From positions 212,001-276,000 of the forward strand of contig NZ_CP081878.1 of assembly GCF_022170825.1 (NCBI RefSeq): a DNA stretch of 64,000 bases. The letters are read 5' to 3'. How positions within the stretch are numbered: the first letter of the stretch is position 1; every line of letters starts with the position of its first letter. The notes under the pieces are model-generated. The model did no database searches and was not told where the DNA came from. It saw nothing but the letters and a program-made list of their open reading frames with translations. Source of the stretch: Exiguobacterium acetylicum. GTDB taxonomy: Bacteria > Bacillota > Bacilli > Exiguobacteriales > Exiguobacteriaceae. The position numbers and the translations under genes are program-made. This document shows, piece by piece, positions 6,417 through 39,779 of the stretch.

Positions 6417-6460
6417 GGCGTAGTAATAACTAACTTAATTCAGTTCTCACTCAACCAGTG

Positions 6461-6718
6461 GGATGGAGGTTGCAGTTCTTAAGAGTACGGTTACGGATGT
6501 CGTCAAGCGACAGATGAGGTGACCTGAAAGGAAGAGTTGCCGAAATCAATCATCGCTTTGAAGATGATCGATTGGGATTAGATCAAATAGGTCTAATACT
6601 GTCACAAGTCGGGTATCACCTACTTGTGGAGAGCTATCTTTCACGACGGTAGAATGAGGCGCATCCATTTTATTATGTTGCGTTCTCATCTTCCATCTGG
6701 AAGATGAGGGCGCTTTTT
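6461..6718 (+). ncRNA. Lysine riboswitch (L box) with terminator
   Basis: Conserved L-box blocks appear in order: GGAGGTTGCAG, AGAGTA, CCTGAAAGGAAGAGTTGCCG, then GGGATTAGA...TCTAATACTGTCAC and GTGGAGAGCTATC (ending about 6638). An expression platform follows with a hairpin CTCATCTTCC / GGAAGATGAG flanked by GCG/CGC and a T run (6680-6718). Lysine binding should favour the terminator and turn off the permease gene downstream. The family assignment rests on these motifs. Confidence 0.9.
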
Positions 6719-8407: not shown

Positions 8408-10168
8408 ATGACCACATCTGAATTATTTTTCACATTAGGTTCTGCAGCGTTTTTCATGTTGCTTGTTGCCTACATATCCTACCGATTGACGCGTGGGAAA
8501 ACACAAGGCGTTGATGAATACTTCTTAGCAGGGCGTGGACTCAGTGGTGTGTTCATTGCTGGTTCGCTCCTACTGACGAATTTGTCGGCAGAACAGTTGA
8601 TTGGACTGAATGGACAATCTTTTATGGGAAACATGTCAAGCATGGCGTGGGAAGTCACAGCTGGTTTTGCTGCGATCATCATGGCCATCTATCTGCTTCC
8701 AAAGTTTCTTGGACTCGGCATCTCAACTTTGCCAGAATACTTAAGTCATCGGTACGACGAGACAGTTCGTCGAATGACGGTTCTACTCTTTTTACTTGGA
8801 TATATGTGTGTCACGATTCCTTCAATGCTCTATTCGGGCGGGATTGCTGTCTTACAGTTGTTCGATGTCCCTGAATTGTTCGGTCTTAGTTACACGCAGT
8901 CCCTATGGTTAGTCGTTTGGGTCGTCGGAATCATCGGAGCGATTTATGCGATTTTTGGTGGTCTACGTGCGGTAGCTGTCTCGGACACACTGAACGGGAT
9001 TGGACTCGTTTTCGTCGGTTTTCTAGTTCCGATACTTGGCTTCATTGCGCTGGGTGACGGAAATCTACTTCAAGGAATGAAGACGATTGCGACTGTGCAT
9101 CCGGAGAAGTTGAACGCAATCGGAAGTTCGACGGATGCTGTTCCATTCTTCTCGATTTTCACAGGGATTTTATTTGCGAACTTGTTCTATTGGTCGTTGA
9201 ACCAATATGTCATTCAACGTGTGCTCGGAGCAAAGGATTTAAAGGAAGGGCAAAAAGGAGTCTTGATGACCGGTTTTTTAAAGTTGTTAGTTCCAGTCTT
9301 CATGCTGATTCCTGGGATCATTGCCTATCATTTGTACGGGAATACACTAACGAGCGGTGATTTGTCATACCCGCGACTCATTACGGAGTTGTTGCCGGTT
9401 TCGTTGATGGGATTTTTCTTGGCTGTCTTACTTGGAGCCGTCTTCAGTTCGTTTAACTCGCTTCTAAACAGCATTGCGACACTTTTTGTCCTCGATATCT
9501 ATCAGCCGGTGTTTGCGAAAGAGGCGAGTGATGAACATCTGATTCGTGTCAGTAAATGGTTTGGGACAATCGTTGCTCTAATTTCTTTCATCATTGCACC
9601 ATTCTTGATGTATGCGCCGGACGGTTTATGGAGTTTGATTCGGCAATTCACAGGATTTTTCAACATTCCAATTCTCGTCATCGTATTAATGGGAATTTTC
9701 ATGAAACGAATCCCAGCGATTGCAGCGAAAATCGTCATCGTCTTTCACGTGTTCGCGTACTACTTATTCGTTTTCGGTTTCAAACAACTGTTCGGCTGGG
9801 ATCATGGCATTAGCTATATTCATGGGTACGGCATTCTACTCGTGATTGAAGTACTGTTCATGGTATTCATGGGCTATCGTTATCCAGCGGTCCAGTCAAG
9901 AAAGGTCAATCGACGACAGTCTGTCGAACTCACTCCATGGAAGTTCGCGATTCCTGTTTCGATTCTGTTATGTACATCAATCATTTGGACGTACGTCTTG
10001 TTTTCAAAAATCGGACTGGCTTCTACAGCAGGCATCGTATCGATTTGGTTCTGGCCGGTTACGTTAGGACTTGTCATCGCAACGATCGTATTATGGCGTG
10101 TGTCGCTAAACGCTTGGGAAGCGAAGTACCGGACCTATCTCGAAGAAGAGTATCGTCAAGCCGAATAA
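8408..10168 (+). CDS. Sodium:solute symporter (SSS family)
   Basis: 586 residues with about 14 hydrophobic segments. SSS features include YFLAGRGLSGVFIAGSLLL near residue 40, GLNGQ, YAIFGGLRAVAVSDTLNG (the family signature region) and SLNQYVIQRVLGAKD, resembling the SglT/YidK sugar-type branch. It would take up a sugar, sugar acid or polyol with sodium. The cre site in its promoter fits a carbon-source transporter. GGGGGAAG sits before the ATG at 8408. Substrate not determinable. No catabolic gene lies beside it. Confidence 0.82.
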   Translation: MTTSELFFTLGSAAFFMLLVAYISYRLTRGKTQGVDEYFLAGRGLSGVFIAGSLLLTNLSAEQLIGLNGQSFMGNMSSMAWEVTAGFAAIIMAIYLLPKFLGLGISTLPEYLSHRYDETVRRMTVLLFLLGYMCVTIPSMLYSGGIAVLQLFDVPELFGLSYTQSLWLVVWVVGIIGAIYAIFGGLRAVAVSDTLNGIGLVFVGFLVPILGFIALGDGNLLQGMKTIATVHPEKLNAIGSSTDAVPFFSIFTGILFANLFYWSLNQYVIQRVLGAKDLKEGQKGVLMTGFLKLLVPVFMLIPGIIAYHLYGNTLTSGDLSYPRLITELLPVSLMGFFLAVLLGAVFSSFNSLLNSIATLFVLDIYQPVFAKEASDEHLIRVSKWFGTIVALISFIIAPFLMYAPDGLWSLIRQFTGFFNIPILVIVLMGIFMKRIPAIAAKIVIVFHVFAYYLFVFGFKQLFGWDHGISYIHGYGILLVIEVLFMVFMGYRYPAVQSRKVNRRQSVELTPWKFAIPVSILLCTSIIWTYVLFSKIGLASTAGIVSIWFWPVTLGLVIATIVLWRVSLNAWEAKYRTYLEEEYRQAE

Positions 10169-10228
10169 TCCTCTCGCAGAAGGCATGACATATCGGGTAA
10201 GATGAAAGAAAAACAGGAGGCGATCTTC

Positions 10229-10411
10229 GTGAATTACTGGTACCACTTCAAGCGTGCCTTCTTACCGATCGCATTATTGCTTGTGACGCTTGCCTTGTAC
10301 CAAATGATTTATCGTTTGAATAACATCTGGTATTCGCTTGGAGGACTTCTACTTGTCTTTGCGGCGATTTACTTCGTCATGCGTCGTCTAAAAGCGAACC
10401 CAGAGGATTGA
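10229..10411 (+). CDS. Small two-helix membrane protein
   Basis: 60 residues starting with GTG at 10229, eight bases after a strong AGGAGG. Two hydrophobic segments (about residues 10-27 and 33-50) are followed by a basic/acidic tail ending ANPED. An upstream ATG (10202) precedes the ribosome binding site and is rejected. It lies between the symporter and msrAB with no shared regulation evident. No family recognised. Confidence 0.65.
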   Translation: MNYWYHFKRAFLPIALLLVTLALYQMIYRLNNIWYSLGGLLLVFAAIYFVMRRLKANPED

Positions 10412-10480
10412 ATGAGCAGGAAAGTCGAGTCCATTCTCTGAACGCGGTAAAATAGACACATACAGAGGAGGGGAAGATAG

Positions 10481-11428
10481 ATGGCAAAAGCAATATTTGC
10501 AGGTGGTTGTTTCTGGTGCATGGTCAAGCCATTCCATAAATATGATGGGGTAGAGCAGGTCATTTCAGGATATACCGGTGGTCATACAGAGAACCCGACT
10601 TATAAAGAGGTCTGTTCGGAAACGACAGGTCACTTGGAGGCGGTTGAAGTTACGTACGATCCGTCCGTCATTACGTACGAAGAATTACTCGAGATTTTCT
10701 GGCGTCAAATCGACCCGACAGATGGCGGAGGTCAATTCAATGACCGTGGTGAATCGTACCAACCGGCTATCTTTTATGTCGATGAAGCACAGCGTGAAGC
10801 AGCTGAGCGTTCAAAAGCTGAACTTGACGCATCAGGACGCTTCTCGCGTCCAGTCGCGGTAGAGATTCGTCCAGAAAAGCCGTTTTGGCCAGCTGAAGAA
10901 TATCACCAAGATTATTATAAAAAGAATCCGTTCCGTTATCAGATGTATAGTGTCGGCTCAGGTCGCGCGAAATTCATCAAGGAAGCGTGGAAGGACCAAG
11001 GTAAGGAAAAAGAACTGAAAGAGCGTCTGACACCAATTCAGTATAAAGTCACACAAGAGAACGGGACAGAGCCTGCTTTCCGTAACGAATACTGGGATGA
11101 AGAACGTCCAGGACTGTACGTCGATATCGTCGATGGTACACCACTCTTCACATCGAAAGATAAATTCCAGTCAAACTGTGGTTGGCCGAGTTTCGCTAAA
11201 CCGATCTCAGAAGACAAGATGGAAGTCGAACTCGATACGAGTCACGGGATGACGCGGACGGAAGTGCGTTCTGCGAATGCGGATAGTCACCTCGGTCATA
11301 TCTTCGATGATGGTCCGACAGAACTTGGTGGTCTTCGATACTGTATCAACTCAGCGGCGTTACGATTTATTCCGCTTGAAGAGCTTGATTCGGCAGGATA
11401 CGGGGAATATAAAAAACATTTCGAGTAA
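10481..11428 (+). CDS. msrAB: Bifunctional methionine sulfoxide reductase MsrA/MsrB
   Basis: 315-residue fusion that repairs both epimers of methionine sulfoxide. The N-terminal MsrA domain (about residues 1-160) has GGCFWC with the catalytic cysteine and [10 protein letters not shown]. The C-terminal MsrB domain (about 175-310) has [16 protein letters not shown] and [11 protein letters not shown] with the catalytic cysteine. It lacks the MsrB zinc CxxC pairs. No signal peptide, so cytosolic. GAGGAGGGG precedes the ATG. Single gene with its own terminator. Confidence 0.93.
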
Positions 11429-11436
11429 CACGTAAG

Positions 11437-11473
11437 GAGCAGTCAAACGATTTCGTTTTGACTGCTCTTTTTT
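11437..11473 (+). terminator. Intrinsic terminator after msrAB
   Basis: GAGCAGTCAAACG / CGTTTTGACTGCTC hairpin followed by six T. Confidence 0.85.
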
Positions 11474-11495
11474 CAAATAGAAGGGAGAGAATCGA

Positions 11496-12791
11496 ATGTT
11501 TCGACCCGTATATGAAGAGATTCGACAAATGACGATTGCGAAGGTACTTGATTTCTACGATCATGAAATTCGTCAGCTCAATGAGCAAGCACGTCAGGAA
11601 AAATACGACAAGATGAGCTTGAGTCCGTTTCGCTTTTTCCGTGGAAGTTCGCATTTGTTTTATTACGATGTGACGCGAATCCCTCTTGGTTTTGATACAC
11701 CTCGTGATAAACCAACGTGGATTCAGGGCGATCTTCACTTTGAGAACTTTGGTGTCCATGGCAATGCGAAGGGAGAGATCATCTACGACGTCAATGACTT
11801 TGATGAAGGATACTTAGGATCCTACCTGTACGATTTGATTCGAATGGCAGTCTCCGTTCGGTTGTTCGCCGAAGAGGCAGGATACGATCCGATTCCTGCG
11901 ATTCGAAATTATGTCCTCGAATACTTACACGATTTAAAAAAGTACGCTCTCGGAAAAGATCCGAGTGATGTCTGTTTTACGCGGGATAATACGAAAGGAC
12001 CAATCAAGAAATTGATCAAAAAAGCAGAAAAGAAACGTGAAGAATTAATGGGAGAGCGGACGGAACTGGTGGATGGCGTGAGACGGTTTTGTACGCTCCC
12101 GGATATGGAAGCAATAGATGACGCGACACGATCGGCGATTGAGACTGCCTGGTCATCCTATATTGAGACGATTGACGTTGACGATCGCCGTGACGAAGCG
12201 TTCTATACAATCAAAGATATTGTCCGGAAGCTAGATAGTGGAACGGCATCGATTGGTCTTGAGCGCTATTACATTCTGATTGAGGGGGAGGGAGGAGAAG
12301 AAGATTTGATTCTTGAAATGAAACAAGCACAAACTTCTGTTCCGTCATTGTTCCTTCCCGTCTATCGTCCAGAAGCTGAAACCGTTCATCAAGGACGACG
12401 AATCATCACGTCTCAAAAAGCAATGCAGGCATATGAAGATCCATATCTTGGCTACCTGACGATTGGGGAAAAGGAATATTATGTACGGGAGCGCTCACCG
12501 TATAAGAAAAAACTAAAAGCCAAGCATATCAAAAGTCAGGAAGACCTTGAAAACGTCTTGTGCATTCAAGGTCAAATCACCGCCAAAGTCCATGCGCGGG
12601 CGGATCAGGATGCCGGTATTAAAGAAAAAGTTTTAACACATCACGCGGACGTCGAAATCATTCAGGCAATCGGTGTTTCAGACACTGCTTTCTTAGAACA
12701 AATCGAGCGTTGGTCAGAAGCCTACGTGACACGAACAAAGCTGGATTACCAAGTGTTTTTGGAGTGGGTGAAGACCCGAAGATTAAATTAA
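11496..12791 (+). CDS. DUF2252 family protein (kinase-fold-like)
   Basis: 431-residue cytosolic protein of the DUF2252 family. Diagnostic blocks are FRFFRGSSHLFYYD near residue 48, QGDLHFENFG (a Brenner-like catalytic motif reminiscent of aminoglycoside kinases) and NDFDEGYLGSYLYDL (metal-binding Asp position). Because these resemble HxDxxxxN and DFG, a phosphotransferase activity is plausible but unproven. A strong AAGGGAGAG ribosome binding site precedes the ATG. Monocistronic between two terminators. Confidence 0.82.
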   Translation: MFRPVYEEIRQMTIAKVLDFYDHEIRQLNEQARQEKYDKMSLSPFRFFRGSSHLFYYDVTRIPLGFDTPRDKPTWIQGDLHFENFGVHGNAKGEIIYDVNDFDEGYLGSYLYDLIRMAVSVRLFAEEAGYDPIPAIRNYVLEYLHDLKKYALGKDPSDVCFTRDNTKGPIKKLIKKAEKKREELMGERTELVDGVRRFCTLPDMEAIDDATRSAIETAWSSYIETIDVDDRRDEAFYTIKDIVRKLDSGTASIGLERYYILIEGEGGEEDLILEMKQAQTSVPSLFLPVYRPEAETVHQGRRIITSQKAMQAYEDPYLGYLTIGEKEYYVRERSPYKKKLKAKHIKSQEDLENVLCIQGQITAKVHARADQDAGIKEKVLTHHADVEIIQAIGVSDTAFLEQIERWSEAYVTRTKLDYQVFLEWVKTRRLN

Positions 12792-12816
12792 AAACTTAAC
12801 AAACTGAGGCTTGTCA

Positions 12817-12854
12817 GATGGATGTGTAACATGTGTTACACATCCATCTTTTTT
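12817..12854 (+). terminator. Strong intrinsic terminator
   Basis: Near-perfect palindrome GATGGATGTGTAACA / TGTTACACATCCATC followed by six T. Confidence 0.9.
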
Positions 12855-27323: not shown

Positions 27324-27365
27324 GGTACACATCACGAAAATCACGAAACGTAAACGTATAGCAAC

Positions 27366-29406
<2,041 letters not shown>

Positions 29407-33604: not shown

Positions 33605-33724
33605 GTCTGTCACCATTCTGTGACGAATTGAACAAACAACTTGAAATCCCTGTGAATCCGGGCTTGAGACGGCACTAAAACGGGAATTTAATAAGTATCT
33701 AACACTTCGAAGGAGGTGGGGACG

Positions 33725-34912
33725 GTGAAGCAGTTACGCAAGTTGAGCGAGTGGAGCGAAGCAGGTCTTTTAGATGAAGCGACTGTCGAACGAATCGTTG
33801 ATTATGAGAACCATCGTAAGGAAAAGCAACGTCTACCGCTCTTGTTAATCGTAGGAGGGACATTCGTCGCATTGGCTGTGTTCAGCTTTTTAGCCGCCAA
33901 TTGGCAAGCGATGCCGATTGGCTGGAAAATCGGACTTGTCGTAGCACTCATGTGGGGCTGTTACGTCATGGGAGATCTCTCAGAACGTCGTCGTATTCTT
34001 CATCCGGTTGTCTTTCGAGTCGGCGGAATCCTAGCATTTGGCGCATCGATTCTCGTCGTGGTTCAAAGTTTTCACTTGCCGATGGAAGGATCGTTACTCG
34101 GATGGTGTGTGTTTGTCGCTGCGTTAGCACATTATGTGCTTTGGCGCCATGAAGCATACGGTGTCGTCGCTTTCCTTTCCGGATGGACGATCTTCACGAG
34201 TCTTGGTGGTTTTGGTCAGGAGCAGGCGAGTTATCTCGACTGGACATCATTCGGTCTGATGGTCGTGTTGTCGTTCAGTTGGTTTTACTTCAGTCAACGT
34301 CTGCCGTCACTTCTGTTTAGCTGGTTGTTCCTTTTCTTTAGTGGTCTATCCTTATTTCTCCTTATGTCGTATGACGGATTTCTGTGGCCGGTCTGGACGC
34401 TATTTTTGCTCGTTCCAGTGCTCTGGCTTGTTCGTGAGGAGTCCAACCGACGAATCGTCGAGATGATCTACCTGGTCGTCGCTGGCATCAGTTCGATTAT
34501 CTATCTGTCCGTTCGTGCGGAATCGAATGCTGTATTGCCATCCGTGACAGAGGCGATTCTACTAGCAATCGTATCTCTCGGGTTAGGAATCTTCCTCTAT
34601 CAAAAACGTCGTTCCTTATTGTTCATCGTACCGCTTGGTTTCGTCGGCGTTCTTTGGCTTGATGAACAGGCCATTCTACTCGCTATCCTCTTTGAATTAT
34701 CCGCGCTACTTTATCTGTTATATCAAGAACGCCGTCATGCAGTCGTCTGGCCAGCCTTTATCTATTTTATTCTCGTTCAAATCGCGATATACGTCATCTA
34801 TGCGTGGGATCGGTTGAATATGTCCTTATTTTTCCTCATCGGTGCGTTACTCATCTTCCTATTGTCTGGTGTCTTATGGTGGATACGCCGTAGAGGAGGT
34901 GTGGCATCATGA
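33725..34912 (+). CDS. DUF2157 multi-spanning membrane protein
   Basis: 395 residues. A short cytosolic N-terminal helix region (KLSEWSEAGLLDEATVERIVDYE) is typical of DUF2157 and is followed by about ten to twelve membrane helices. The GTG at 33725 is eight bases after AGGAGG; an earlier in-frame GTG (33716) overlaps the ribosome binding site. It overlaps the GDYXXLXY gene by four bases. The pair is widespread but uncharacterised; an envelope role is likely. Confidence 0.82.
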   Translation: MKQLRKLSEWSEAGLLDEATVERIVDYENHRKEKQRLPLLLIVGGTFVALAVFSFLAANWQAMPIGWKIGLVVALMWGCYVMGDLSERRRILHPVVFRVGGILAFGASILVVVQSFHLPMEGSLLGWCVFVAALAHYVLWRHEAYGVVAFLSGWTIFTSLGGFGQEQASYLDWTSFGLMVVLSFSWFYFSQRLPSLLFSWLFLFFSGLSLFLLMSYDGFLWPVWTLFLLVPVLWLVREESNRRIVEMIYLVVAGISSIIYLSVRAESNAVLPSVTEAILLAIVSLGLGIFLYQKRRSLLFIVPLGFVGVLWLDEQAILLAILFELSALLYLLYQERRHAVVWPAFIYFILVQIAIYVIYAWDRLNMSLFFLIGALLIFLLSGVLWWIRRRGGVAS

Positions 34913-35352
34913 AACGTTATCTCATGCCTATACTTCAGACATGTGTCGTTAGTCTGTTGATCATCAGTTTTTTTGCGACCTCCTGGTTCGGCACATCGTA
35001 TCGCTTTCGGGCAGAGCCGTTTGATCCATTTGATCCCGTTTACGGTGAGTACGTGATGCTTCAATATCCAGATTTAAAACCAGATGCAACAGTTCAAAAC
35101 GGTCGTGTCTACGTCAGCTTCAAGACAGATGCTTCCGGTTATGCTCAAATCGATCGAATTTCGAATGAGCGATTCTTTGGAAGTGTCGCCGGCGATTATT
35201 ACGATCAATACGTGTCGATTCCACAGTTGACGCAGTATTATGTCGAACAGGGAAGCGGAAAACAATATGAAAAAGCAAAAGCACTCGAAGTCCGAGCAGA
35301 TGTGTCGCCATGGGGAACGATTCGGACGACGGATTTAAAAATTTCTGAGTAA
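34909..35352 (+). CDS. GDYXXLXY-domain protein
   Basis: 147 residues. One N-terminal membrane anchor (about 10-28) is followed by an extracytoplasmic domain with YGEYVMLQYPD, the variant of the GDYxxLxY signature, and RFFGSVAGDYYDQYVSI. It always accompanies DUF2157-type proteins, as here (ATGA overlap). No enzymatic residues obvious. Probably a partner subunit at the cell surface. Confidence 0.8.
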   Translation: MKRYLMPILQTCVVSLLIISFFATSWFGTSYRFRAEPFDPFDPVYGEYVMLQYPDLKPDATVQNGRVYVSFKTDASGYAQIDRISNERFFGSVAGDYYDQYVSIPQLTQYYVEQGSGKQYEKAKALEVRADVSPWGTIRTTDLKISE

Positions 35353-35420
35353 AAAACCTTGCGTCAGGAATGAAACGGATGTACGATTAATTTAAATTTT
35401 CAGACAACTGAATCTGCATG

Positions 35421-35691
35421 CGTAGACGGGAAGAGTAAAGTGATCAGAAATCGATAGAGAGTCTCTGTTGCTGGAAATGAGACGATTTCGTCATTTGAAG
35501 ATGGTCTCGGAGCAGTCGGAAGAACGTGAACCGTGTTCATTAGTAGAACCGACCGGTAGGAAGGATACCGTTAGCATTCCATGGAGTCTCGTACTCCTAG
35601 AGGTGGCTGAACGTGAGTTGGGCCATGAACGAAGGTGGTACCACGTGATCAGACATCACGTCCTGAGAGATAAGGGCGTGGTGTCTTTTTT
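35421..35691 (+). ncRNA. T-box riboswitch, specifier AUG (methionine)
   Basis: T-box parts in order: GACGGGAAGAGTA at the stem I base; AAATCG (pairing with CGATTT); AGAGAG and GCTGGAAA of the upper stem I; GAAG-ATG-GTCTCGGAGC, which aligns with the specifier region of glyQS-type leaders with ATG (35511-35513) as codon; the T-box GAAGGTGGTACCACG (35631-35645); and the terminator AGACATCACG...CGTGGTGTCT plus T run (35651-35691). TGGT at the bulge implies discriminator A, as in tRNA-Met. Uncharged tRNA-Met should turn on the operon downstream. Confidence 0.88.
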
Positions 35692-35724
35692 GTGGAGACG
35701 TTCCCGCAGGAGGAGGATGACGAG

Positions 35725-36582
35725 ATGGCAGAAGCATTAGTATTGCAATCAGACTTTGGTGTGAGTGACGGGGCAGTCAGTGCGATGTATGGGGTTGCCC
35801 ATAGCATCAATCCGGAGATTCGGATTTTTGATTTGACGCACGATATTCCGCCGTTTCACATTTGGGAAGCGTCCTATCGGTTACTACAGACGGTACCGTA
35901 CTGGACAGAGCAAACGGTGTTTGTTTCTGTCGTTGATCCAGGTGTCGGATCGAGTCGAAAAAGTGTCGTCGCGCGGACGCATGCGAATCAATACATCATC
36001 ACACCGGATAACGGAACGTTGACGCATCTTTGGCAAGCCGGATACATTGCTGAAGTGAGGCAACTCGATGATCGACGGCATCGCTTACCGCGAATGGGGG
36101 AATCGTATACGTTTCACGGAAGAGATATCTTTGCTTTCACGGGTGCTCGGTTATCGAGTCATGTCATCACATTCGAGGAGGTAGGACCCGTTTTACCTGA
36201 TTCGGGCATCGTCTTGCTCGACCGGACACTTGCCTCGTCGTCGGACACCGGTGTTACCGGTATCGTCGAGATTCTCGATGTTCGCTTCGGAAATGTCTGG
36301 ACGAATATTCCGGTCGCTCTCGTCCGTCAGGCGGGTCTCGACATCGGTAGCCACGTCAAGGTAATGATTTCGTACCGGGAACGGATCGTCTACGAACAAA
36401 CACTACTCTTTGGTCACTCGTTCGCCGATGTTCCAGTTGGTTCAGGAGTCGTCTACATCAACTCGCTGGATCAGATTGCTCTTGCCTTGAATCAAGGTTC
36501 GTTTGCGCATGCATTTGAGGTTGGAATCGGAAATGATTGGAGTGTTAACGTACAACAAATCAAAGGAGGAGATCGAACATGA
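35725..36582 (+). CDS. SAM hydroxide adenosyltransferase (DUF62 / SAM hydrolase)
   Basis: 285 residues of the fluorinase/chlorinase/DUF62 superfamily. Members of the DUF62 branch split S-adenosylmethionine with water into adenosine and methionine. Seen: [51 protein letters not shown] and [23 protein letters not shown] lies eight bases before the ATG at 35725. It is the first gene after the Met T-box and overlaps the ECF S gene by four bases. Releasing methionine from SAM under methionine starvation fits this control. Confidence 0.9.
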
Positions 36583-37130
36583 AAGGATTTACGACAAAAC
36601 AGATCGTCGCAACCGGGATCGGAGCAGCTGTATTCATCATTTTAAGTCGATTCGCTGCGATTCCGACGGGCGTACCGAACACGTCAATCGAGACAGCCTA
36701 TGCCTTTCTCGCATTCATGGCAGTTTTGTTCGGACCAGTCACAGCTGGTTTGATTGGTTTAATCGGTCATGGATTAAAAGATGCGATTTTATATGGTTCC
36801 CCGTGGTGGAGTTGGGTCATCGTATCCGGGTTCGTCGGTTTTGGCATCGGACTCATCGCTAACCGGATTCGTTTAGAAGAAGGTGGATTGACGACACGTA
36901 AAATCGTCTTATTCAATGCCACACAAGCCATCGTTCAAGCGATCGGATGGATCATCCTTGCACCGGTACTCGATATCTTGATTTATGCAGAGCCAGCGAA
37001 TAAAGTCTTCGTCCAAGGTGCTGTTGCCGCGACATCAAATATCTTGACGGTCGGCGTCATCGGCACGTTATTGCTCGTCACATATGCCAAAACAAGAAGT
37101 AAAGCAGGCAGCTTAAAACGCGAAGCTTGA
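36579..37130 (+). CDS. ECF transporter S component (UPF0397 family)
   Basis: 183 residues with five to six hydrophobic segments: the substrate-binding membrane subunit of an ECF importer. The [20 protein letters not shown] block and [18 protein letters not shown] match UPF0397 proteins. Coupled to the SAM hydrolase gene (ATGA overlap), with AAAGGAGGAG in that gene's 3' end. Under a Met T-box, its substrate is probably methionine, SAM or another methionine source; this is inference. Confidence 0.85.
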
Positions 37131-37133
37131 CCG

Positions 37134-37180
37134 AATGAGCTATGATCCTGTGCGAAGAGACGGCAGGGACATAGCTCATT
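37134..37180 (+). other. Intercistronic hairpin without T run
   Basis: AATGAGCTATG (37134-37144) and CATAGCTCATT (37170-37180) form a perfect 11-base stem with inner CCTG/CAGG. It ends 10 bases before the GGGGGGAG ribosome binding site of the ATPase gene. No T tract, so it is not a terminator; it may be a processing, stability or translation element. Confidence 0.55.
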
Positions 37181-37200
37181 TAGCTTGGGGGGAGAAGAAC

Positions 37201-38904
37201 ATGACAAACGTGATTGAATTTCAGGAATTTTCATTTACATATCGGAGTCAGTCGGAACCGACGCTTCGCCAGATTCAGTTAACGATTCAAGCAGGCGAAC
37301 GGATCTTAATCGTCGGACCGTCGGGTTCAGGGAAAAGTACGCTAGCCCAGTGCATCAATGGGTTGATTCCGTTCTCGTATCCGGGAACGTGGGAAGGTCA
37401 GGTCCTGATCAAAGGTCAGGACGCGCGGGAGTTATCGTTGTTTGATCGTTCGTTGCATATTGGTACGGTGTTACAAGATCCGGATGCACAATTCGTTGGC
37501 TTATCGGTCGGTGAGGATATTGCCTTTGCGCTCGAAAATAAACAGACAGGGCGCCCGGAAATGCAGGAGATCGTCGAACGCGTCGCACGGATGACAGATG
37601 TTGAGACACTACTGCAATCACGATTGAATGATTTATCAGGAGGACAGCGACAACGGGCTGCATTAGCGGGGGTCCTTGTCGAAGATGCGGATATCTTGTT
37701 ATTTGATGAACCACTCGCGAATCTCGATCCGGTCGCGGGGCAAGAGGCGATGATGTTAATGGATCGTTTGCAGCGTGATACGAATCGCACGTTGATCGTC
37801 GTCGAACACCGGATCGAAGATGTACTCGTCATTCCGTTTGACCGCATCATTGTCATGGTCGATGGGGAAATCATTGCCGACGATCATCCGGATGTTATCT
37901 TAAGCAATGGAGTACTTCAACAAGCGATTTTGCGGGAACCGCTCTATGTCAGTGCCGCGCGCTGGTCTGGTATGACTGTCCAATCTTCAGACCAGCCTAG
38001 CCGCATCGATCCCTTTTTAAAACGGTTCAACCAGACGAATGTGTTAGAGCGTTTAGAGGAAGTACCTCCAAAAGGAGTTGAAACATCTACTCCATTGCTT
38101 GAACTTGAGCAGTTGGCATTTCATTATCGCCAAGAAACGCCAGTGCTCGAGAATGTGACAGCGACTTTTCAAAAGGGAACGCTGACGACAATCGTCGGTC
38201 AGAATGGTGCCGGAAAATCCACGCTTGCGAAAGTGTTGAGTGGTTATCAACGAGCAACGAGTGGCCGAATCTTACTGAACGGAAATGATATCACGACCCA
38301 ATCGATCGGAGAGCGGGCAGGGACGATTGGATTCGTCCTACAAAATCCGAATCATATGATTTCAAAGCACCTCGTGCAGGAAGAGATTCGCTACGGCATG
38401 CAGGCACTCGGATTAAGTGAGACGGAAGAAAACGAGCGTCTCGAGCAGACGTTACGTCGCTGCGGATTATATCCGTTTCGTAATTGGCCGATCCAAGCAC
38501 TGAGTTTTGGTCAGAAGAAACGAGTGACAATCGCTTCGATTCTCGTCCGACGACCAGATATTTTGATTCTCGATGAACCAACAGCCGGTCAAGATTACCG
38601 GCATTACTCAGATATGATGGACTTTTTGGAAGGCTTGAAACAGGACGGGATGACGTTACTCATCATTACACACGACATGCATCTCGTCTTAGAATACAGC
38701 GATCAAGTCTGTCTCGTTCAAGCCGGTCGCATTCGTTACGCTGGAACGTCATTTGGACTGCTCAATCAAGAACAGTTGCTTCATCATGCGCATTTAAAAC
38801 AAACGTCGCTCTTTACGATTGCGAAGCATCTCGAAGTCGATCCGGAACGATTCGTCGAGTCCGTGATTACGACGGAACGAAAGGAGCGAGAACAATGGCT
38901 GTAG
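37201..38904 (+). CDS. ECF transporter ATPase, two fused ABC domains
   Basis: 567 residues, a fusion of two energy-coupling ATPases (A and A'). Domain 1 has GPSGSGKST, LSGGQRQRAALAG and ILLFDEPLANLDP; domain 2 has GQNGAGKST, LSFGQKKRVTIAS and ILILDEPTAGQD. Both look catalytically complete. It energises uptake by the flanking S and T subunits. A GGGGGGAG ribosome binding site precedes the ATG at 37201; the open frame from 37135 covers an intercistronic hairpin. Overlaps the T gene by ten bases. Confidence 0.92.
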   Translation: MTNVIEFQEFSFTYRSQSEPTLRQIQLTIQAGERILIVGPSGSGKSTLAQCINGLIPFSYPGTWEGQVLIKGQDARELSLFDRSLHIGTVLQDPDAQFVGLSVGEDIAFALENKQTGRPEMQEIVERVARMTDVETLLQSRLNDLSGGQRQRAALAGVLVEDADILLFDEPLANLDPVAGQEAMMLMDRLQRDTNRTLIVVEHRIEDVLVIPFDRIIVMVDGEIIADDHPDVILSNGVLQQAILREPLYVSAARWSGMTVQSSDQPSRIDPFLKRFNQTNVLERLEEVPPKGVETSTPLLELEQLAFHYRQETPVLENVTATFQKGTLTTIVGQNGAGKSTLAKVLSGYQRATSGRILLNGNDITTQSIGERAGTIGFVLQNPNHMISKHLVQEEIRYGMQALGLSETEENERLEQTLRRCGLYPFRNWPIQALSFGQKKRVTIASILVRRPDILILDEPTAGQDYRHYSDMMDFLEGLKQDGMTLLIITHDMHLVLEYSDQVCLVQAGRIRYAGTSFGLLNQEQLLHHAHLKQTSLFTIAKHLEVDPERFVESVITTERKEREQWL

Positions 38905-39719
38905 AAATGCTTGGTTATATTGAAAAAGCCTCACCGATTCATCGTTTGACGGGAACGACGAAATTGATTGGCTTCCTGTTATTTACGACGGCAACGATGT
39001 TCACTTATGACACACGGGTCTTGCTTGTACTGGGGTTAGTCAGTATCGTGTTATTCCGATTGTCGCGTATTCAGTTTCGGGAAGTCCGGTTCGTCTTAAT
39101 CTTTACAGCGATTTTTGTCCTGGTCAATGCGCTCGCCGTTTATCTCTTTGAACCAGAGCAGGGTGTAGCAATCTACGGATCGCGTCATGTGTTACTTGAA
39201 GGGATTGGACGATTTACGGTGACGTCAGAACAATTATTTTATCTGTTCAATCTAATCCTAAAATATAGTGTGATTGTTCCGATTGCTGTGTTGTTTCTCG
39301 TCACGACCCATCCGACAGAGTTTGCTTCTTCCTTGAATCGGATTGGTATACCCTATAAGATCGCCTTTGCAGTTTCCTTAGCGCTTCGTTACATTCCAGA
39401 CGTACAAGCGGATTTTCGGACGATCGCGAATGCCCAAGAAGCACGAGGAATTGCCGTCTCACACGGCTCCCTTTGGCAACGGGCACGTAATAGCATCCAG
39501 ATTTTACTTCCGTTACTGTTTACGAGTCTCGAGCGGATTGAAACGGTTAGCAATGCGATGGATCTCCGTGGATTTGGTGCGGGACGAAAGCGAACGTGGT
39601 ACAACCAACAGACGATGACACGAATCGATTATGTTGCCATCAGTTGTGTAGTACTTTTGACGATTTTCTCGTTCATTGTCACCTTTCATGATGGCAATCG
39701 CTTTTATAATCCGTTTTAA
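38895..39719 (+). CDS. ECF transporter T component
   Basis: 274 residues, EcfT/CbiQ family, four to six membrane helices with the cytosolic coupling helices marked by AQEARGIAVS and MDLRGFGAGRKR, the two Ala/Leu-Arg-Gly motifs that contact the ATPases. Last gene of the operon, so together with the S and A genes it is a dedicated (group I) ECF importer. Followed by a bidirectional terminator. Confidence 0.9.
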   Translation: MAVEMLGYIEKASPIHRLTGTTKLIGFLLFTTATMFTYDTRVLLVLGLVSIVLFRLSRIQFREVRFVLIFTAIFVLVNALAVYLFEPEQGVAIYGSRHVLLEGIGRFTVTSEQLFYLFNLILKYSVIVPIAVLFLVTTHPTEFASSLNRIGIPYKIAFAVSLALRYIPDVQADFRTIANAQEARGIAVSHGSLWQRARNSIQILLPLLFTSLERIETVSNAMDLRGFGAGRKRTWYNQQTMTRIDYVAISCVVLLTIFSFIVTFHDGNRFYNPF

Positions 39720-39731
39720 AACGTTATACGA

Positions 39732-39761
39732 AAAAGGCAGTGGATGCGTCCACTGCCTTTT
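39732..39761. terminator. Bidirectional terminator
   Basis: AAAAGGCAGTGGA / TCCACTGCCTTTT perfect hairpin between the convergent EcfT and cstA genes. Confidence 0.88.
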
Positions 39762-39779
39762 GTCATATGACCAATCCGC

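Follow-up and report, generated by a model that had tools for sequence, protein, structure and literature searches.

A Met T-box operon joining a SAM hydrolase to an ECF importer in Exiguobacterium acetylicum: a candidate methionine-recovery module

Why would a bacterium place an enzyme expected to destroy S-adenosylmethionine (SAM), together with a complete importer, behind a leader that reads the charging state of tRNA-Met? The question is raised by an operon in a stretch of 64,000 nucleotides from the 3.36 Mb genome of Exiguobacterium acetylicum (NZ_CP081878.1, positions 212,001 to 276,000; hereafter the window, in whose numbering all positions are given). The operon consists of a T-box leader followed by genes, all on the + strand, for a DUF62 SAM hydrolase and for the S component, double ATPase (A) and EcfT protein (T) of an energy-coupling factor (ECF) transporter. 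We propose, at somewhat better than even confidence, that it is a tRNA-controlled module for methionine recovery whose importer most likely brings in SAM. The hydrolase part of this proposal, the recovery of methionine from SAM, is its well-supported core, and here our confidence is high.

The leader occupies 35414-35668 of the + strand, where a cmscan of 35300-35800 aligned it to the full T-box model (RF00230, 1-219) at 79.4 bits (E 1.2e-17). As the Rfam gathering score for this family is 93, the leader is missed by a gathering scan of the whole window. The original prediction had described a Met-specific T-box with an AUG specifier, in a feature starting at 35421, which lies inside the leader, 7 bases past its start. 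The specificity was confirmed by the family alignment, which places AUG at 35501-35503 within a specifier loop reading GAA-G-AUG-G. The bulge of the antiterminator, UGGU, was located at 35636-35639 from the sequence and the RF00230 alignment; its expected partner is the ACCA end of the tRNA, and the predicted fit to the tRNA-Met discriminator A was also upheld, as both copies that we read of the matching tRNA-Met gene, which we take to be of the elongator type, carry that base. Specifier and bulge thus agree on one tRNA, tRNA-Met. Immediately downstream, an intrinsic terminator (35651-35691, + strand) with a 14-pair stem and a T run has a 5' arm that overlaps the antiterminator; it folds at -30 kcal/mol (z -4.85), and none of 200 shuffled sequences did as well. 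An AAU (Asn) specifier, readable in the frame beside AUG in leaders with GAAAAATGG, was rejected, as the shorter leaders (those of the window, L111 and L115 in our numbering of loci) leave AUG. The discriminator of tRNA-Asn is G, with which the Asn reading would also be mismatched to the UGGU bulge. For the met T-box of Staphylococcus aureus, a preference for initiator tRNA has been reported (PMC3771891).

Analysis of the host genome revealed 21 T-boxes, and AUG stands at the specifier place in this leader only; in four of the others (L002, L010, L016, L021) the specifier pattern yielded no candidate, and no AUG-type motif was found at that place. The same genome has 11 SAM riboswitches, which bears out the contrast, drawn at the outset, between this leader and the riboswitch-controlled methionine genes. 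The genes behind these riboswitches include one for a MetN-type ATPase with a NIL domain (by Pfam in L022; the opening residues of L023 and L027 are similar), one for an amino acid permease that has an S-methyltransferase as neighbour and one for a protein of the antiporter family; judged from first residues only, methylthioribose kinase, MsrA and MetK are also among them. MetE (PF01717) was found neither in this genome nor in any of the 38 genomes of the order that were searched, and the single PF02574 match, in an open reading frame of 329 codons, is not long enough to be MetH; methionine salvage should therefore matter in this genome. MetE was dropped as a predictor of the module, since its absence from all 38 genomes leaves no contrast.

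The first gene of the operon (35725-36582, start ATG) encodes a protein matching SAM_HAT_N (PF01887, 1.7e-49) and SAM_HAT_C (PF20257, 6e-20). An Asp-Arg-His triad has been described for DUF62 hydrolases and sets them apart from halogenases (PMC10491745). By alignment to 2zbu and against SalL, we mapped this triad to D71, R78 and H131 of the window protein, where SalL has Y and T in place of D71 and R78, and Y in place of H131. A fluorinase or chlorinase identity was rejected, the hydrolase triad being present instead. The predicted structure (pLDDT, the model's own confidence score, 87) is closest to Thermotoga 2zbu, then to SalL, the fluorinase and PH0463. From family and active site, the enzyme would be expected to convert SAM to methionine and adenosine. 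Among 121 DUF62 open reading frames (ORFs) longer than 240 residues, Asp and Arg are present in all 121 and His in 115. The six exceptions (L114, L115, L276, L240, L241, L282) have Tyr or Phe at the catalytic His with Asp and Arg intact, and three of them (L114, L115, L276) lie behind a Met T-box; the SalL chlorinase likewise has Tyr at this position. The physiological role of DUF62 is termed unknown in the excerpted text of a 2025 paper.

Is the combination of leader and hydrolase a local accident? In the order, DUF62 is present in 14 of the 38 genomes, and all 14 have the T-box, DUF62, the S gene and the start of the A gene together; the loci of the 13 relatives end inside A, so that EcfT is outside the view there. 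All 13 relatives' leaders match RF00230, one of them over the gathering score. At the specifier, AAGAUGGUC is invariant in all 14 leaders, and much of stem I varies. These genomes are kin, and hence do not represent 14 independent events. A wider sample of 398 genomes of the class, own order included, has the S component in 64 genomes and DUF62 in 50, and in 39 of the latter the two are neighbours by coordinates. We took regions from the 36 DUF62 genomes outside the order and from 24 of the 25 genomes having S with no adjoining DUF62 (G095 was omitted). Ten of the 36 have a T-box motif directly upstream of DUF62; all ten leaders are backed by RF00230, nine of them over the gathering score, and all ten read AUG. 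Three more distant candidates were not accepted: in L119 and L142, a T-box some 1.5 kb ahead of DUF62 belongs to another gene, with a specifier region GAATTAC and a different ORF behind it (the ORF map was seen for L119), and in L137 a T-box motif at a distance of 3.5 kb upstream was likewise discounted.

In the 24 regions free of DUF62, no T-box was found before the S gene, 19 of them having been searched upstream with Rfam and all 24 scanned for the motif on both strands. Two motif matches in such regions were discarded, one lying inside an ATPase gene (L148) and the other on the strand opposite to the operon (L158).

Furthermore, we examined the best 80 loci from a scan with a DUF62 alignment, beyond which more exist; going by record titles, 47 are from Bacillales and 33 are not. 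L223, labelled Roseburia, was counted with Bacillales, its neighbours being common to Virgibacillus loci. A locus was scored as having ECF genes when A and T matches were both in it, a count that cuts at contig ends can only lower; the set overlaps with the class sample (e.g. Exiguobacterium sp. TNDT2), and the counts are not additive. The Bacillales loci divide into 13 with ECF genes and T-box, one with ECF genes and no T-box (L217), 13 with T-box and no ECF genes, and 20 with neither. All 26 T-boxes of these 47 loci read AUG (24 by pattern, and L225 and L223 by eye). As T-box and DUF62 occur together at 13 Bacillales loci free of ECF genes, and no T-box was found before S alone, the T-box tracks the hydrolase and not the importer. 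Outside Bacillales, A and T are present in 30 of the 33 loci. At gathering score, no riboswitch was found before DUF62 in 10 Clostridia-type loci, nor ahead of DUF62 on its strand in 11 Bacillales loci that lack a motif T-box; elsewhere in those 11 there is a PreQ1 riboswitch on the other strand (L237) and there are T-boxes far downstream (L256, L272). When the ORFs of 140 stretches were clustered, no cluster besides DUF62, the ATPases, S (82 loci) and T (69 loci) occurred in more than 13 loci. The original prediction had called for a survey of DUF62-S neighbourhoods, and in it both the pairing and the Met T-box recur across the order, the class and the 80 loci.

On a DUF62 gene tree built by a quick method from 106 rows with an ORF picked (L250 on a very long branch), we count at least 13 changes of T-box state and 22 of ECF state; by this tree, the T-box and ECF links to DUF62 are not one frozen inheritance. 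Two or three copies of DUF62 with ECF genes were seen in 14 of the 80 loci, all of them non-Bacillales (L236, L244, L248, L250, L251, L258, L275, L280, L283, L285, L288, L289, L293, L295).

A mechanism can be proposed on this basis. By analogy with the T-box family, when methionine is short, uncharged tRNA-Met would bind the leader through AUG and UGGU and stabilise the antiterminator, and the operon would be read. The DUF62 enzyme would then split SAM into methionine and adenosine, the methionine recharging tRNA-Met, and the removal of SAM would also lift the repression that SAM riboswitches impose on methionine uptake genes. The ECF importer, in what is the weakest step, would bring in a compound usable by DUF62 or by methionine metabolism, most likely SAM. 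The idea, advanced in the original prediction, that tRNA charging would turn the operon on in methionine shortage despite the presence of SAM is supported by the conservation of the AUG leader across genomes. As the T-box tracks DUF62 with or without the importer, the hydrolase part is held more firmly than SAM as the substrate.

The importer itself is complete by profiles and by the S-component model, with an S component, EcfT and two ATPase domains. The S gene (36579-37130, + strand) matches PF07155 (4.6e-48) and NF010182 (248.2 bits, cut-off 99), both of which carry riboflavin in their names. The ATPase gene (37201-38904, + strand) encodes EcfA and EcfA' in one chain, with TIGR04520 and TIGR04521 both over cut-off, and the last gene (38895-39719, + strand) encodes EcfT (PF02361, E 2e-31), which falls under the CbiQ equivalog cut-off (TIGR02454, 75.9 against 111.8). 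What it carries is a separate matter. No PDB sequence match to the S component was found at E up to 1. Elsewhere in the genome, a PF12822 S component (108.9 bits) lies directly behind a flavin mononucleotide (FMN) riboswitch, as expected of RibU, and RibD lies behind the genome's second FMN riboswitch. PF07155 matches this RibU-type protein as well, by a narrow margin over the cut-off (28.0 bits), so that membership of the Pfam family does not tell the two S components apart. With a RibU-type gene following an FMN riboswitch elsewhere in the genome, riboflavin is the less likely cargo here, and SAM or another methionine source the likelier one.

The case for SAM in particular draws on three kinds of context: the company of DUF62, one SAM riboswitch before a related S-A-T set, and MetQ/MetI-like neighbours. 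SAM riboswitches were found in two of the 19 upstream regions of DUF62-free S loci. In L158/L199 (G073), one of 81.9 bits stands right before a DUF62-free S-A-T set of the PF07155 family, on the same strand; a SAM riboswitch in the region of L204 was left uncounted, being on the strand opposite to a weak S match. Six loci (L127, L128, L129, L131, L133, L134), by our reading streptococcus-like in content, have a tight run of genes for a MetQ-like protein, an M20 peptidase, an ABC ATPase, a MetI-like protein, an MptD-family S component, DUF62 and the PF07155 S component (names from L127, by Pfam over cut-off, with NCBIfam MetQ and MetI best and below their cut-offs). In L224 (Bacillus sp. T33-2), genes for an ABC ATPase, a MetI-like and a MetQ-like protein (9192-12840) lie about 490 bases behind a full T-box-DUF62-S-A-T operon, on the same strand. 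The importer forecast by the original prediction, for SAM or another methionine source, is present in full and in methionine contexts; from these contexts, we advance SAM as the cargo only tentatively. SAM is, to our knowledge, not a known substrate class of ECF transporters. The name MtsT was reportedly given by Rodionov in 2009 to a methionine-linked ECF S component, which may be the family of the window protein. In S. aureus, a 'riboflavin' ECF S gene and a stretch beside a SAM hydrolase gene were repeatedly mutated under silver-nanoparticle selection (PMC13210130).

Several observations weigh against the proposed module. In the leader, the antiterminator stretch folded alone does no better than shuffles (z -0.16), and a simple scan from 35330 found no sigma-70-like promoter ahead of it. 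No T-box was found at 26 of the 36 class loci outside the order (20 searched with all of Rfam over 1.3 kb upstream at E 0.05, six by motif only). Among the 80 loci, none was seen at 20 of the 33 ECF-free Bacillales loci, at L217 or at any of the 33 non-Bacillales loci by a motif scan, to which Rfam at gathering score, able to miss leaders as weak as that of the window, was added for 11 of the 21 Bacillales and 10 of the 33 others. The S component occurs with no adjoining DUF62 in 25 of 64 genomes, so the importer does not need DUF62; and the S-component model (pLDDT 91), an S-component fold, is close to ThiT (Z 17.7) and to RibU and FolT (about 15) alike, so that the fold gives no substrate. 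On the side of the enzyme, StDUF62 has a preference for (R,S)-SAM, and hydrolysis has since been questioned as its physiological role (PMC12120602). The operon itself has no adenosine-salvage gene, and hydrolysis of SAM made in the cell wastes the ATP spent on making it.

Of the other explanations, the one that survives best, which we still regard as unlikely, has DUF62 act as a valve only, lowering SAM, freeing methionine and opening SAM riboswitches, with the ECF transporter importing something else; under methionine shortage this could be methionine, S-methylmethionine, methylthioadenosine or another precursor. It accommodates the 13 Bacillales loci where T-box and DUF62 are retained and ECF genes are absent, the importer genes that occur without DUF62, the many SAM riboswitches of the genome, several of them before transport genes, and the lack of MetE throughout the order. 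Against this, DUF62 is almost always accompanied by A and T outside Bacillales, which suggests a link between enzyme and cargo. A distinctly less probable explanation is that DUF62 removes off-pathway (R,S)-SAM, with methionine as a by-product and the importer loosely connected. StDUF62 does selectively hydrolyse (R,S)-SAM (PMC10491745, PMC12120602), and among NCBIfam models an (R)-SAM hydrolase scores best on the window protein, though far below cut-off (139.9 against 350 bits); however, damage control should not hinge on the charge of tRNA-Met, and the occurrence of an AUG T-box across many genera speaks for methionine supply. A riboflavin transporter, as the family names of PF07155 and NF010182 would have it, that came to lie next to a SAM hydrolase by coincidence is very improbable given the separate PF12822 S component behind an FMN riboswitch in the same genome, the DUF62 pairing and methionine contexts, and the finding of no FMN riboswitch in 39 upstream regions searched, 33 of them from loci with a PF07155-type S gene.

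Methionine recovery behind a tRNA-Met leader therefore remains our preferred account of the operon. Its extension to Bacillota at large, in which DUF62 would recover methionine at uncharged tRNA-Met and link the T-box and SAM-riboswitch regulons and, in addition, the adjoining PF07155 S components would be SAM importers, is more doubtful, and as a joint claim probably goes too far.

The gene order foreseen for the operon, with DUF62, S component, double ATPase and EcfT coupled behind the leader, agrees with the domain profiles and gene ends: the ends overlap for DUF62 and S and for A and T, and 70 bases separate S from A. An alternative ATPase start is the ATG at 37135, and a Shine-Dalgarno-like GGGGGGAG lies ahead of 37201. 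A probable terminator for the end of the operon, common to it and the convergent cstA, was read from the sequence at 39731-39762 and was not listed by the terminator scan. Just upstream of the module (33716-35352) lies a pair of genes for DUF2157 and GDYXXLXY membrane proteins, found beside it in 10 of the 14 order genomes. Elsewhere in the window, a lysine riboswitch (6456-6644, 116.8 bits) and a purine riboswitch (27348-27447, 72.1 bits) score over gathering.

Conserved ahead of DUF62 in many genera, a leader responsive to tRNA-Met offers a direct, testable answer on the role of this family. Our results also suggest that the name of a large S-component family is misleading, and that destruction of SAM may allow Bacillales to override repression by SAM riboswitches. 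Among the matches listed in our searches we recognised no published description of an operon joining DUF62, ECF genes and a T-box, and a prior description is possible. Met T-boxes are called rare in Bacillales in the excerpted text of PMC3771891, which gives none for Listeria; in PMC2494555, Listeria lmo2587 is entered as a 'hypothetical' with a Met T-box, and five ABC (ATP-binding cassette) systems of L. plantarum are given Met T-boxes.

The operon resembles several known systems and differs from each. With the Met T-box operons of S. aureus (metICFE-mdh) and of Lactobacillus (met), it shares an AUG leader, a terminator and antiterminator, and a part in methionine supply; their reported targets are methionine synthesis, classical ABC transport and MetS (PMC3771891, PMC6004538, PMC2494555), whereas the leader of the window precedes genes for a SAM hydrolase and an ECF importer. 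The fold of phage SAM lyases and SAM hydrolases is unrelated to that of DUF62. These phage enzymes destroy SAM, as the window enzyme would, but their role is counter-defence (PMC7877911). PH0463, Thermotoga 2zbu, MJ1651 and StDUF62 are like the window protein in Pfam domains, fold and Asp-Arg-His triad; for these members the excerpted sources state no settled physiological role or regulation, whereas the clade of the window protein is tied to tRNA-Met control and an importer. Finally, the operon shares all four parts and the S-component fold with ECF transporters that have a dedicated energising module, in which S, T and a double A are encoded in one operon, but the context here is that of methionine and SAM instead of a vitamin.

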